Source of the DNA: Porticoccaceae bacterium | Lineage (GTDB): Bacteria; Pseudomonadota; Gammaproteobacteria; Pseudomonadales; Porticoccaceae | Length of the DNA: 64,000 nucleotides | Direction of reading: 5' to 3' | NCBI GenBank assembly: GCA_029242085.1 | Contig: JAQWUP010000031.1 | Span: 1 to 64,000, forward strand | Part shown: piece by piece, positions 1 through 61,237 of the stretch | Layout: each line of letters starts with the position of its first letter | Numbering within the stretch: position 1 is the first letter of the stretch | Notes under the pieces: generated by a model | What the model saw: the letters and a program-made list of their open reading frames with translations, nothing else | What the model was told of the DNA's origin: nothing | Database searches by the model: none | Program-made: the position numbers and the translations under genes

Positions 1-510
1 AGTGCTCACGGCAACAAAGTCTGGCGATCCAGCTTTGTGCTGATGGATTATCTTACCACCTATCCGCCGGAGCAAGGCTCGCGGGTTCTCGACATAGGCT
101 GTGGTTGGGGTTTAACCGGGCTTTTTTTAGCCAAACAATATGCAGCTGAGGTGACCGGGATTGATATAGATGAGTCAGTGGCCCCTTTTCTGGCACTGCA
201 GGCTGATATTAATAAATGTGAAATGGAATTTCAGGCCAGGGGTTTTGAGACTCTAACAGGCGGAGAACTGGCTAATTACCAGACTGTTATAGGCACAGAT
301 ATTTGCTTTTGGGACGAACTGACTCAGCCATTATTTGATTTGTTGAAGCTGGCGATAAGTGCAGGAGTAGAAAGAATAATTATCGCCGACCCGGGCCGAC
401 CACCGTTTTGGGATCTGGTCGATAGGTCTGTCGTGGCCTTAGATGCTGAGGTGGTCACCAGGCGTATCTATGACCCCTGGAAAACGGAAAAATATATTTT
501 AGTCATATAA
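1..510 (+). CDS. Class I SAM-dependent methyltransferase, 3' part (starts before the window)
   Basis: The reading frame is open from base 1, before the first ATG at 37, so this is the C-terminal part of a longer gene. The glycine-rich SAM-binding motif I (DIGCGWGLTG) is followed by an acidic strand end (TGIDID), which is the class I methyltransferase Rossmann pattern. The residues before it (NKVWRSSFVLMDYL) resemble the small protein-lysine or nicotinamide-type methyltransferases, but the substrate cannot be named. It ends just before a strong bidirectional hairpin terminator and converges on the lipoprotein gene. The family is clear; the function is not. Confidence 0.8.
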   Translation, partial: SAHGNKVWRSSFVLMDYLTTYPPEQGSRVLDIGCGWGLTGLFLAKQYAAEVTGIDIDESVAPFLALQADINKCEMEFQARGFETLTGGELANYQTVIGTDICFWDELTQPLFDLLKLAISAGVERIIIADPGRPPFWDLVDRSVVALDAEVVTRRIYDPWKTEKYILVI

Positions 511-630: not shown

Positions 631-2937
631 TTAAGGGGTAGCTGTTGCTTTTACTTCCTTAATAATCAAGCCTTGGTCTCTTTCAACAATGTACATAAGC
701 AGACCCTTGTAGACCTCACCATCAGGACGAGCAGCGAACGTTACCTCATAGGCAGTCTCTGTTTCACCAGTTACAACGACCGGGTCTGTAAAGAAGCTAG
801 GGTCAACATTTGGGTGTGCATCCTTTTCAAACTTAAACTTCACGGTCGTATCCGCAACTCCCGCAGGGAGTGAGGCTTTAAAGGACACCTTGCCACCATT
901 TGGAAATCTAAATGGTGAAATTGCTGTATTGTTGTTAGCCCAACCAGCCCAAGCCTCAGCCCCCGTTGGGAAGGTGAAAGCCCCGGTATCAGCGTTGTAT
1001 GTTTGACCGCCAAACTCACCCCAAGTAGCGTAGGGAGTAGTAGCGGCAGTTACCGTTACATCTTTGATAATTACACCCTGATCACGCTCAACGATGTACA
1101 TCAGCAAGCCCTTATAGCTTTCACCATCAGGTCTAGGAGCAAACGTGACTTCATAGGTGGCTTCTGTTTCGCTATTTACAACAACTAAGTCCGTAAAGAA
1201 GCTCGGATCGACATTTGGGTGTGCATCCTTTTCAAATTTGAACTTCACGGTTGTGTTCGCTCCACCTGACGGAAGCGCAGCTTTGAAGGACACCTTACCA
1301 CCATGAGGGAAACTAAATGGCACAATCGCTGTATTGTTGTTAGCCCAACCAGCCCAGGCCTCAGCCCCTGTTGGGAAAGTGAAGGCTCCTGTCTCGGCAT
1401 CGTAGTCTTGACCACCAAACTGTCCCCATGAGGCTGTTGTTGGAGAAGTTGCAGTTACTTTCACATTTTTGATAATTACCGGCGAATCACGCTCAACAAT
1501 ATACATAAGAAGACCTTTGTAACTTTCGCCATCAGGTCGAGCGATAAATGATACCTCATACTCAGCTTCAGTCTCACCAGATACCACAACTACATCTGTG
1601 AAAAAGCTCGGATCAACATTTGGGTGTGCATCCTTTTCGAACTTAAACTTTACAGTGGTATCCAGTCCGCCAGCAGGCAGCGCTGCGGTAAAAGTTACCT
1701 TACCGCCCATCGGGAAACTAAACGGCGCAATTGCGGTATTAAGATTAGCCCAACCAGCCCAGGCCTCAGCGCCTGCTGGAAAAGTAAAGGCTCCGGTATC
1801 GGAGTTATAAGTCTGACCGCCAAACTGACCCCATTCGGCGAACTCGCTGGGCGGTTCAGGAGCAACATTGACACCATCTGGCATAGCGATGCCACCGTGT
1901 TTAATGTCGTCCCAGTACCATGTCGCCGCAGGTTTACCTGAAGTGATACCTCCCCAGATCATGAGGAATGCTCCATACTCAACCGCGGGGTCTATTCCAC
2001 CTTCAATTGGATCACTGAAATCAAAATAGATAGTTTCCCACTGATTAGCCACTGAAGTGTACGCTTGGGCTACAACATTCTTAGCATTATTGGTAGCGTC
2101 TTCTAGCTTGAGCTGCACCTTAGTACCAGCGGTTTCTGACTTAACACGGACCGCAACCACAGGGTCTGCTTCACTTAGATAGAAGCTGAAGTCAGGAGCA
2201 GTTGTTTCACCAACAACGAGGTAAGCACCGGCCCAAGGTTTACCGTCGGCCCCAACTGACGATTTAACTACGGTGTTAGTAGCATCATCGGCATCTGCTA
2301 ACAGCGCCGAGAGGGTGCCAGGCACTACGTCGTCATTGGCTGTACCAATGTCCTTCCAATTATAGATCAGAGTTGAATCTTCAAAATCCAGCTCACTCTC
2401 AACAATAGGGAAAACGACGCAAGATCCATCGGCACAGTATTGAACGCTGGACCACTCACCCGCCTTTCCTTCGTCATTCGAAGCCAAAGTCGAGGCAGAG
2501 ACCGCTTCTCCAGCAGTACCACTTATATCGGTGAAAGAAATATTGAAGCTGACCATGCCATCCTCATCATCGGCGCTCATGGTACGTGCACCTGACCAAC
2601 TGTTGTGTTGGCCTTCGACGTCCACTTCAACGCCGTTGATCGTTACTGTAGGCTTGCTGAGAGATTCGCTCGCTGTAAAAGAGACCTTAACAGTGGCGCC
2701 CAGGTCAGCATACTGCAAACCTGTCTCAACAGCAGCCAACGTGACTTTGGATAAAGTCGGTGCAACTCCGTCAGGGCCTGCTGGGTCTGCAGCAACGTTG
2801 TCCGTGACAGAGTTACCGCCATCACCACAGGCTGACAGAACGAGTGAAAAAGAAAGTGCACAGACTGCACCGAACTTACTACTTTGAAAAAGACTGGACA
2901 TCCAGCCAACGGTATTGCTGGTTACTTGCGAACGCAT
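631..2937 (-). CDS. Outer-membrane-type lipoprotein with Ig-like domain, CBM-like domain and three 135-residue repeats
   Basis: 768 aa. A hydrophobic signal segment (about residues 20-36) ends in the lipobox LSAC with Cys37, followed by a Gly/Asp-rich linker, as in exported lipoproteins. Residues about 58-165 look like a bacterial Ig-like domain. About 183-350 resembles a beta-sandwich carbohydrate-binding domain. From Trp369 to the end are three tandem copies of one unit (Trp369, Trp504, Trp639), each opening WG(Q/E)FGGQ and containing KFKFEKDAHPNVDPSFFTD and GLLMYIVERD. The start at 2937 has a GGGGGA ribosome site; Met13 is a weaker alternative. A surface glycan- or ligand-binding role is inferred from architecture only. 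No enzyme domain was seen. It is monocistronic, with the terminator at 559-595 just downstream. Confidence 0.75.
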   Translation of the reverse strand: MRSQVTSNTVGWMSSLFQSSKFGAVCALSFSLVLSACGDGGNSVTDNVAADPAGPDGVAPTLSKVTLAAVETGLQYADLGATVKVSFTASESLSKPTVTINGVEVDVEGQHNSWSGARTMSADDEDGMVSFNISFTDISGTAGEAVSASTLASNDEGKAGEWSSVQYCADGSCVVFPIVESELDFEDSTLIYNWKDIGTANDDVVPGTLSALLADADDATNTVVKSSVGADGKPWAGAYLVVGETTAPDFSFYLSEADPVVAVRVKSETAGTKVQLKLEDATNNAKNVVAQAYTSVANQWETIYFDFSDPIEGGIDPAVEYGAFLMIWGGITSGKPAATWYWDDIKHGGIAMPDGVNVAPEPPSEFAEWGQFGGQTYNSDTGAFTFPAGAEAWAGWANLNTAIAPFSFPMGGKVTFTAALPAGGLDTTVKFKFEKDAHPNVDPSFFTDVVVVSGETEAEYEVSFIARPDGESYKGLLMYIVERDSPVIIKNVKVTATSPTTASWGQFGGQDYDAETGAFTFPTGAEAWAGWANNNTAIVPFSFPHGGKVSFKAALPSGGANTTVKFKFEKDAHPNVDPSFFTDLVVVNSETEATYEVTFAPRPDGESYKGLLMYIVERDQGVIIKDVTVTAATTPYATWGEFGGQTYNADTGAFTFPTGAEAWAGWANNNTAISPFRFPNGGKVSFKASLPAGVADTTVKFKFEKDAHPNVDPSFFTDPVVVTGETETAYEVTFAARPDGEVYKGLLMYIVERDQGLIIKEVKATATP
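634..1833 (-). repeat. Three tandem 405-bp coding repeats
   Basis: Unit 1 is about 1429-1833, unit 2 about 1024-1428 and unit 3 about 634-1023 (slightly shorter at its end). The landmark TGGGTGTGCA on the plus strand recurs at 811, 1216 and 1621, an exact 405-base spacing with no indels. Nucleotide identity is visibly high in the block encoding KFEKDAHPNVDPSFFTD and lower elsewhere. This fits duplication of a whole domain followed by divergence, or ongoing conversion. Confidence 0.9.
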
Positions 2938-3148: not shown

Positions 3149-3469
3149 TCAACCCGCTTTACTGCCACCGAGACAGTTTGGTGAATCCGGCGCTCCGCCT
3201 TGGTTAACAGACCATTCTGAGTCCGTGTAGGTATGCAGCGCCAGGGCATGCACTGGCCCTTTTAATTCATCAGCCAACAGTGCATAAATCGCCCGATGGC
3301 GCTGCACTAGAGGTTTGCCAACAAACTGATCTGAAACGACAACAACCTTAAAGTGACTCTCTGAGCCCAACGGCACCGAATGCATGTAACTTTCATTGGT
3401 CACCTGTAAAACCGCAGGGCTGCATTGCTCTGTAAGCTTTTCGGTGATTGTTGTTTCTATCGGGCCCAT
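3149..3469 (-). CDS. bolA: BolA family protein
   Basis: 106 aa, the usual BolA size with a short extra C-terminal tail. The family signature is visible: HFKVVVVSDQF, then LVQRHRAIYALLADEL, then VHALALHTYT, matching the class II KH-like fold of BolA. BolA proteins pair with monothiol glutaredoxins in iron-sulphur handling and affect morphology and stress responses; here only the family is shown. The ATG overlaps the oadB stop codon by one base (TAATG), so translation is probably coupled to oadB. This operon setting is unusual for bolA as I know it. Confidence 0.9.
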   Translation of the reverse strand: MGPIETTITEKLTEQCSPAVLQVTNESYMHSVPLGSESHFKVVVVSDQFVGKPLVQRHRAIYALLADELKGPVHALALHTYTDSEWSVNQGGAPDSPNCLGGSKAG

Positions 3470-4641
3470 TACATACCGCCAACGAGATTAATCATCACAC
3501 CAGCGGCAACGGCAGAACCGATAACACCTGCAACATTGGGACCCATAGCATGCATCAATAAGAAGTTTTGCGGATTGGCCTCAAGCCCCACCTTATTGGC
3601 AACCCGCGCAGCCATAGGCACAGCCGACACGCCAGCAGCACCAATGAGAGGGTTAACCTTATGCTTGGCAAAGACATTCATCAGCTTGGCCATCAATACA
3701 CCAGAGGCAGTACCAATACAGAAGGCAACTGCGCCGAGCCCTAAAATACCCATGGTTTCAGGGTTGAGGAATTTTTCGGCACTCATTTTTGAGCCCACCC
3801 CCAAACCGAGGAAAATGGTGACTATATTGATCAGCGCATTTTGCGTGGTATCACTGAGACGATTGACCACGCCACATTCGCGCATTAAATTGCCAAAGCA
3901 GAACATACCTAGCAGCGGTGCGGCATCTGGCAACAACATAGCAACCAGCACTAATAACGTAAGTGGAAAGACAATACGCTCAGCCTTGGTCACATAGCGC
4001 AACTGTTCCATTTTGATTTGGCGCTCATCCGGTGTGGTAAGCGCGCGCATGATAGGCGGCTGGATAATCGGCACCAGTGCCATATAAGAATAGGCTGCTA
4101 CAGCGATAGCACCGAGCAAATCAGGGGCTAGTTTACTGGTTACAAAGATTGCAGTGGGACCATCGGCGCCACCAATAATACCGATGGATGCCGCTTCACG
4201 GATACTAAAGTCAAGAATTCCAAAGTGACTCAACCCGACCGCACCCAGCACAGTGGTAAAAATACCTACCTGAGCTGCTGCACCCAGCAGCAATGTTTTA
4301 GGGTTAGCCAGCAGAGGCCCGAAATCGGTCATTGCCCCAACACCCATAAAGATCACTAACGGAAACAGACCAGTTTCAATACCTGCATGGTAAATGTAAT
4401 ACAGCAGACCGCCCGGGCTCTCCATATGCCCCATCGCATCATAGATGGGTGCAGCATCGAAACCAGCGCCGGGTATATTAGCCAGAATAGTACCGAAACC
4501 AATAGGGACCAACAGCAACGGTTCAAAGCCTTTGCTAATGGCGAGAAATAACAGTGCCAGTCCAACTATCATCATCACAAGCTGGCCGAGCTGCAGTTGC
4601 GCCAGGCCAGAACTCGCCCATAAACTCAATAGATTATCCAT
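3469..4641 (-). CDS. oadB: Oxaloacetate decarboxylase Na+ pump, beta subunit
   Basis: 390 aa integral membrane protein with many hydrophobic segments. The conserved [10 protein letters not shown] motif carries Asp160, equivalent to the Na+/proton-binding Asp of the Klebsiella subunit. The C-terminal [12 protein letters not shown] motif carries Asn369, also conserved in the pump. The beta subunit decarboxylates carboxybiotin and couples this to Na+ export across the inner membrane. It lies 13 bases after oadA and overlaps bolA by one base. The beta subunits of methylmalonyl-CoA and glutaconyl-CoA decarboxylases are close relatives, but the OadA-type alpha subunit next door favours oxaloacetate. 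Confidence 0.93.
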
Positions 4642-60724: not shown

Positions 60725-61237
60725 CTAGAACGGGATATCATCATCAAAGGTGTCCATGCCCTGAGGTGCCTGTTGCGATGTACCCTGACCCTGCTGTGGA
60801 GCACTTGATGCCTGCTGCTGGGGAGCACTCTGCTGCGGCGCGCTCTGCTGACTGTACTGCTGGTTGGATGATTGCTGATAATCACCGCCCTGCTGACCAC
60901 CTCGGCTGTCCAGCATTTGCATTTCACTGGCAACGATTTCAGTGGTGTAACGATCCTGTCCGTCCTGACCCTGCCACTTGCGGGTGCGCAATGACCCCTC
61001 GACATAGAGTTTAGAGCCTTTCTTAACGTATTCACCGGCAATCTCTGCCAATCGGTTAAAAAATACCACACGGTGCCATTCAGTACGTTCCTGCTGATCA
61101 CCGGTATTCTTATCTTTCCATGATTCAGACGTGGCAATACTCAGATTAGTTACAGCGCCGCCTGAAGGCATAAAGCGAGTTTCTGGATCCTGACCACAGT
61201 TACCCACGATGATAACTTTGTTGACTCCGCGTGCCAT
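60725..61237 (-). CDS. ssb: Single-stranded DNA-binding protein
   Basis: 170 aa. The OB fold is marked by [18 protein letters not shown] and [21 protein letters not shown] Gln/Ser/Pro-rich disordered linker follows, and the acidic tip DTFDDDIPF that recruits repair and replication partners ends the protein. GGGGA sits 5 bases before the ATG. It is downstream of the MFS gene and near divergent uvrA, the classical ssb/uvrA neighbourhood with an MFS gene between, as I recall in Pseudomonas. Confidence 0.97.

Follow-up and report, generated by a model that had tools for sequence, protein, structure and literature searches.

A lipoprotein with three tandem predicted beta-sandwich units and its probable role in beta-1,3-glucan capture by a SAR92-clade marine bacterium

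The described systems closest to the locus analysed here are the SGBP-B proteins of Bacteroidota, which PMC7157763 presents as surface lipoproteins for beta-1,3-glucan, encoded in synteny with glycoside hydrolase (GH) family GH3 and sensor/regulator genes and showing low similarity between species. PMC8371827 lists SAR92 with the Gammaproteobacteria that are likely to predominate in the degradation of algal matter during North Sea blooms, and also gives gammaproteobacterial polysaccharide loci as lacking the SusCD tandem of Bacteroidota. The C-terminal domain of a Vibrio vulnificus GH17 enzyme, unnamed and predicted to be a beta-sandwich, is described in PMC9026390 as binding beta-1,3-glucan, and proteins 30-70% identical to it are reported there from several bacteria. 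Porticoccaceae, to which the NCBI taxonomy assigns SAR92, are among these; the domain resembles the units reported below in description only. We analysed a stretch of 64,000 nucleotides (the window; positions 1 to 64,000 of contig JAQWUP010000031.1 from a SAR92-clade marine bacterium) in which a minus-strand gene encodes a lipoprotein of 768 residues, P0001, with three tandem units of about 135 residues in its C-terminal half (Table 1). Among the matches listed in the literature on SAR92, laminarin-binding modules and SGBP-B, no description of a P0001-type protein or of the genomic position that it occupies (the slot) was found, which is not proof of absence.

The GH3 and sensor-regulator synteny of the SGBP-B loci is also found in the SAR92 strain H231, in other loci and, by way of a second contig (C12), in the window's own genome. 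The two systems differ in that SGBP-B is adjoined by a SusC-like TonB-dependent receptor and the SusD-like SGBP-A, neither of which lies directly beside the lipoprotein gene in the window or in H231, and none of the slot neighbours scanned gave a SusD match in Pfam. The SGBP-B loci carry a hybrid two-component system whereas the SAR92 slot has a histidine kinase/LytTR pair, and the phylum is a different one. The fold search with the unit model did list SGBP-B of B. thetaiotaomicron (7kwb), but the 135-residue unit has no credible sequence match in the PDB. The SAR92 slot protein looks like a working analogue of SGBP-B, without evidence of homology.

We consider P0001 to be an outer-membrane surface lipoprotein that would capture beta-1,3-glucan, most likely laminarin, and we give this reading a probability of about two in three. 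It is favoured by the lipobox, a homologue of a laminarin-binding carbohydrate-binding module (CBM), the CBM-type repeats, the fusions of the repeat to glucanases, and the synteny with GH3 and sensor genes. In the proposed mechanism the lipid anchor and the N-terminal module would keep the lipoprotein on the cell surface, where the middle CBM and the three units could bind several stretches of one soluble glucan chain, the glucan being retained by avidity and not by one tight site. Surface glucanases (in relatives, GH16 and GH81 enzymes with the same unit) would cut the glucan, and the fragments would enter via a TonB-dependent receptor, which adjoins in some relatives and is encoded elsewhere in the window's species. 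A GH3 exo-glucosidase-type enzyme would finish the oligosaccharides and the histidine kinase/LytTR sensor pair would adjust expression. The other domain sets found at the slot in sister species may tune which glucan is captured, as SGBP-B does in Bacteroides beta-1,3-glucan loci.

The initial annotation of the gene had called the product a surface lipoprotein, with an immunoglobulin (Ig)-like and a CBM-like domain ahead of the repeat. A signal sequence with the lipobox LSAC and Cys37 can be read directly from the protein and agrees with the first of these claims. The CBM-like domain was also recovered (residues ~179-349, a relative of 8qx6, see below), but for the Ig-like part there were only weak matches below cut-off over residues ~60-175 (tail_200_repeat, E 4e-5 and 23 bits against a cut-off of 350; BPA_C, E 0.07). 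AlphaFold modelled the N-terminal part at a predicted local distance difference test score (pLDDT) of 42.9, with a model usable for about 90 residues. The N-terminal module is probably Ig-like. When the first 366 residues were used as query, a match was found in 28 of 56 relatives, all of them members of the genus; of the 40 listed matches, 29 fell on the first ~180 residues and 11 on the middle domain only. The counterpart in H231 (G019) is 78% identical across residues 1-366 of P0001 and likewise has three units, and the whole protein gave no match against plasmids.

A profile of the middle domain (A5, six rows) was compared with the PDB by hmmsearch and returned one significant relative, 8qx6_A (E 6.3e-8), whose entry bears the title 'Novel laminarin-binding CBM X584'. 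Alignment of the profile with the aligned 143 residues of 8qx6 by hhalign gave a probability of 95, and the Pfam CBM4_9 match on P0001 (E 0.42) falls in the same domain. At the level of sequence profiles, the middle domain is therefore homologous to the solved laminarin-binding CBM X584. The 135-residue unit shares the general fold of X584 in its model but has no detectable sequence relation to it. A paper by Zuhlke et al. (2024, doi 10.1111/1462-2920.16624) concerns, by its reference entry, novel laminarin CBMs of marine Bacteroidota, and 8qx6 presumably belongs to it. A match of the unit to a described family with known ligand, which the initial annotation had named as evidence that would count against it, was not found for the unit; the neighbouring middle domain comes near to providing one.

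The unit is not a named domain, as had been supposed at the outset. In a comparison of 23 single units with Pfam the best match of any had an E of 0.03, none of the matches was a CBM, and no match lay above a family cut-off; sequence searches of Pfam, NCBIfam and the PDB with the unit returned nothing usable; the best 60 of 129 rows in the PDB search were for the most part antibody light chains, none with an E below 0.035. Whole multi-unit proteins gave odd summed Pfam scores (ADC, E 1.2e-6 in L034; GspA_SrpA_N, 8.8e-6 in L035), which were below the curated cut-off and contained no single stretch that passed. Structure prediction and a fold search of one unit had been proposed as a check. An AlphaFold model from a ten-row alignment (window, L031 and L032) was an all-beta sandwich with pLDDT 77.9 and a predicted template modelling score (pTM) of 0.75. 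We searched with this model using Foldseek and VIA-align, taking Z differences under about 1 as ties. The best VIA-align row was CBM29 (Z 10.5, root mean square deviation (rmsd) 2.8, 119 aligned), with CBM36 (10.2), the CBM6 of laminarinase LamC (5fui; 9.9) and SGBP-B (9.6) among the further rows, and X584 gave Z 9.5, rmsd 3.1 and 119 aligned. The unit is thus modelled as a CBM-type beta-sandwich. Its predicted fold is like that of CBM6, CBM22, CBM4, CBM29, CBM36 and other beta-sandwich CBMs but, unlike these named modules, it has no sequence match above Pfam cut-offs.

Conservation across the family was determined from 61 units, which remained of 66 after four of L052 and a fragment with a broken frame had been set aside. 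The 66 were drawn from L031, L032, L034-L048, L050-L052 and the window, i.e. not every unit of the unit-bearing frames described below; for the alignment they were reduced to 36 by removing L052 (same contig as L032), fragments shorter than 110 residues and near-duplicates, and 23 of the 36 were aligned. Positions G24, P34, F45 and F60 are invariant, and of four aromatic positions characteristic of the family the window units retain 22, 25 and 89. The initial annotation had singled out the block KFEKDAHPNVDPSFFTD as strictly conserved and as a possible metal or glycan site. The block is indeed identical in the three window units, but across the family its F (84%), E (89%) and second P (86%) are the only residues that exceed 80%, and at its H, N and D positions no residue exceeds 60%. 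Since the charged residues other than E are not kept family-wide, the case for such a site is weak and we rejected it.

Units were found in 11 of the 56 relatives, all of one genus and with the window's own genome counted. In a wider sample of the order they occurred in 7 of 390 genomes, four of the same genus (again including the own genome) and three outside it (G382, G398 and G404), and in the class (1 of 369) and phylum (1 of 398) samples the single genome was in both cases the own one. Scanning of genome contigs with two short patterns from the three window units returned two loci. The 11 unit genomes hold 40 unit-bearing open frames, some of which are pieces of one broken gene. GH81 was present in three of these frames, GH16 in eight (assigned by same contig and frame length) and GH5 together with CBM6 in one; GH81 also shares a frame with a unit in G382, which is of another family. 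The GH16 frames of 578-579 residues hold a single unit beside the catalytic domain, and some unit frames also have Exop_C, CBM4_9 or CBM48/X25-like matches. The unit lies as a contiguous domain inside frames of carbohydrate-active enzymes, as is expected of a CAZy CBM family, and we regard it as a candidate new CBM family, i.e. an unnamed domain family that occurs in glucanases.

At the level of genomes, GH81 was found in 10 of 11 unit-bearing genomes versus 8 of 24 other genomes of the genus (one-sided Fisher p 0.002, kinship ignored) and, in the 22 genomes at least 90% complete, in all eight unit-bearing genomes versus 8 of 14 others (p 0.04, kinship likewise ignored). G018 and G017 have a second arrangement, with four elements in a row: a TonB receptor that has a CarboxypepD_reg domain and lies in two frames in G018, a 941-residue lipoprotein, a lipoprotein with units (four or three of them), and a GH81 region to which two units belong. 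The units and the GH81 part of G017 lie in different open frames. This arrangement ties units, a transporter and a beta-1,3-glucanase together in one locus.

Two further observations concern the neighbours of unit-bearing genes. The 941-residue lipoprotein (L034:13311-16133 and L037:5397-8219), which lies between the TonB receptor and the unit lipoprotein, consists of two halves that are 82% identical over 437 residues, is 99% identical between the two genomes and had no usable Pfam or PDB match. In G014 (L081:289-3606) and G008 (L084:3460-7341), proteins with a di-haem oxidoreductase domain and Lipoprotein_15 repeats are encoded directly before unit and GH16 proteins.

The gene order at the slot is oadB, lipoprotein, methyltransferase, histidine kinase/LytTR and GH3. 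Pfam identified the upstream genes of the window as those for the oxaloacetate decarboxylase beta, alpha and gamma subunits and arginyl-tRNA synthetase (argS), and BLAST found the alpha subunit and argS in six other slot loci as well. We searched 40 genomes for oadB and found it in 33, the product being 85-99% identical in other slot loci; no match was obtained for G382, G398 and five genomes of the genus. In G031 and G005 the match was at a contig edge, and without these two the survey comprised 31 loci. In 29 of these the protein downstream of oadB has the N-terminal module (by BLAST) and the rest of the protein varies; the exceptions are G026, which has a TonB receptor directly after oadB, and G024, with a fragment only. 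A histidine kinase lay within the fetched stretch in 12 of the 31 loci and GH3 in 10. In H231 the methyltransferase, histidine kinase/LytTR and GH3 genes were all identified by Pfam. In the window's genome (G000) the histidine kinase, LytTR regulator and GH3 are on contig C12, whose last 119 nucleotides are exactly those of window positions 1-119; as this end overlap is inside the methyltransferase gene, C12 probably adjoins the window's contig in the genome.

Comparison of repeat number across related genomes, another of the checks suggested earlier, gave 0 to 5 units per slot protein, together with other domains and sometimes an adjoining TonB-dependent receptor. There are three units in the window's genome, G019 and G010, four in G018 and G034, and one in G011; G017 and G033 also have four, in frames that are broken or split. 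A unit in G014 that lies in a different frame beside the slot protein was excluded from these counts. Several complete slot proteins, e.g. versions of 845-859 residues, are unit-free. CBM4_9 domains were recognised in two unit-free versions, in one case in a second frame that overlaps the first. In G023 the copy that follows oadB is unit-free, and another copy further along has five units. A TonB-dependent receptor comes directly after the unit-bearing lipoprotein in G018, G017, G033, G011 and G023. In 11 of the 31 loci the slot protein runs off the contig, and absence of units cannot be read there. About 3.4 such breaks would be expected for a 3-kb gene from the contig numbers (simulated P about 1e-4, a rough estimate), and the excess fits a slot gene that is hard to assemble through variation or repeats. 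In one sister genome (L098:3085-11335) a cassette of a TonB receptor, two tryptophan-halogenase-like genes, SapC and Cupin_8 lies beside the slot protein; L102, L103, L104 and L107 have a similar cassette as judged by gene lengths, the domains having been scanned in L098.

The initial annotation had described the repeat as an exact 405-bp triplication and had attributed it to recent duplication or gene conversion. Its length and period are exact: the C-terminal half of P0001 consists of three in-frame units of 135, 135 and 132 residues without indels (minus strand, 634-1839), the start-to-start distances are 405 and 405 nucleotides, and Tandem Repeats Finder gave a period of 405, 2.8 copies and a score of 1287. 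The sequence is not exact. Pairwise identity of the window units over 131 aligned codons is 80-82% for protein, 73-77% for DNA and 44-52% for third codon positions, and with 1.68-3.28 synonymous (dS) and 0.107-0.141 nonsynonymous (dN) substitutions per site their silent sites are near-saturated. Between the window and H231, the orthologous units 1, 2 and 3 have dS of 0.70, 0.82 and 0.50 (dN 0.045-0.10), and each window unit is nearest to the same-numbered unit of H231. Informative sites in these two genomes favoured orthology over concerted change by 38:3, 53:2 and 25:11 for unit pairs 1-2, 1-3 and 2-3. Because same-numbered units pair and orthologue dS is below paralogue dS, the triplication is, on these comparisons, old and predates the split of the window species and H231; on the third-position identity and the orthology counts we rejected an exact triplication and a recent one for the window, and gene conversion there has no support either. 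The 11 concerted sites and the low dS between units 2 and 3 of H231 (0.60) hint at some homogenisation there, and not in the window. Judged from dN/dS (0.04-0.08 among window units and 0.065-0.12 between orthologues), the units are held by purifying selection. Recent copying was found in another species, G023, in which three of five units differ by 1-2 of 366 nucleotides (up to 99.7% DNA identity); the gene concerned (L051:7630-13245) encodes a slot protein of 1872 residues in which the 135-residue domain has been recently amplified. The triplication itself is ordinary for surface proteins, and it is the domain family and the slot with its changing domains that are of interest.

Several results weigh against laminarin capture by the whole protein. 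The unit profile matched neither 8qx6 (hhalign probability 0.2 over 10 columns) nor the middle domain, and laminarin binding can therefore not be transferred to it. Its fold matches cover the whole CBM beta-sandwich type with no narrower relative, and ephrin receptors and IFT25, which do not bind sugars, are also in the lists. At position 33, where the family has an aromatic residue (Y/F), the three window units have A, V and S instead; if this residue lines a ligand site then the site has been lost from them. In 28 of the 40 unit frames no GH81, GH16 or GH5 was assigned (domain scans covered part of them), and some unit-bearing proteins have CBM48/X25-like matches of alpha-glucan type. GH16 was found in 30 of 35 genomes, so that its presence does not distinguish unit carriers, and it was dropped as an informative companion of the unit. 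GH81 was not found in the window's genome, which is 82.65% complete, and there is no TonB-dependent receptor between the lipoprotein gene and the methyltransferase in the window or H231.

Some of these points would also be expected if specificity for laminarin were confined to the middle domain and the units bound a different glycan, e.g. an alpha-glucan, a mixed-linkage glucan or some other polysaccharide of algae. The CBM-type fold without a specific relative, the CBM48/X25/AMPK1_CBM-like matches and the existence of unit-free slot proteins agree with such a division. However, the catalytic domains recognised in unit frames are GH81, GH16 or GH5, and scans of 13 unit-bearing proteins showed none of GH13 type; we consider a different ligand for the units unlikely. 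A little less likely again is that the units are inert beta-sandwich spacers that lift the N-terminal CBM off the membrane, a proposal that overlaps with laminarin capture as regards the middle domain. Many surface proteins use inert beta-sandwich stalks, the window units follow one another without linkers, and they lack the family aromatic at position 33; on the other side, units also occur singly beside a catalytic domain, as in the GH16 frames, and aromatics 22, 25 and 89 are kept in the family and the window units, although these may be core residues. A diversifying adhesin or stalk, its C-terminal variation driven by phage or predator pressure rather than by glucan capture, would account for a slot protein that varies in size and domains between conserved flanking genes, for the excess of contig breaks and for the recently copied units of G023, but is the least probable of the three given that the window units are old and under purifying selection, that the unit occurs inside glucanases and that the middle domain is homologous to a laminarin binder.

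Beta-1,3-glucan capture by P0001 can be extended to the slot as a whole, at a clearly more tentative level. The oadGAB-linked slot might be a clade-wide modular glycan receptor of SAR92, a functional stand-in for the SusD/SGBP lipoproteins whose domain make-up sets the glucan niche of each species. Behind a conserved, lipid-anchored N-terminal module it would have exchangeable binding domains, among them the unit as a new beta-1,3-glucan-binding CBM family amplified from 1 to 5 copies. Such a slot would be a candidate for the surface-capture part that is missing from gammaproteobacterial loci, and would link domain content to laminarin niche among closely related species in a testable way.

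Table 1. Features of the lipoprotein gene and its surroundings (window coordinates)
Feature	Position	Strand	Basis or remark
Lipoprotein gene P0001	631..2937	-	Open frame, ATG start, stop 631-633; counterpart in SAR92 H231
Signal peptide and lipobox LSAC, residues 1-37	2827..2937	-	By reading of the sequence; Cys37 at 2827-2829
N-terminal module, residues ~60-175, common to slot proteins of the genus	2413..2760	-	Sequence matches across the genus
Middle domain, residues 179-349, homologous by profile to laminarin-binding CBM X584	1891..2403	-	Profile match to 8qx6_A
Unit 1, residues 367-501	1435..1839	-	
Unit 2, residues 502-636, modelled as CBM-type beta-sandwich	1030..1434	-	
Unit 3, residues 637-768, runs to the stop codon	634..1029	-	
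oadB, oxaloacetate decarboxylase beta subunit, upstream slot marker	3469..4641	-	Pfam OAD_beta E 1.6e-161
Methyltransferase, 3' part, downstream neighbour; contig starts inside the gene	1..510	+	86% identical to the H231 methyltransferase
Slot loci with an assembly break in the gene: L096, L099, L100, L101, L105, L106, L110, L113, L114, L115, L117			

Elsewhere in the window, a 15-nucleotide tandem repeat of 2.4 copies lies at 60815-60850. A promoter scan found 4 sites versus 3.4 expected, and there were 8 terminator-like sites versus 3.4.

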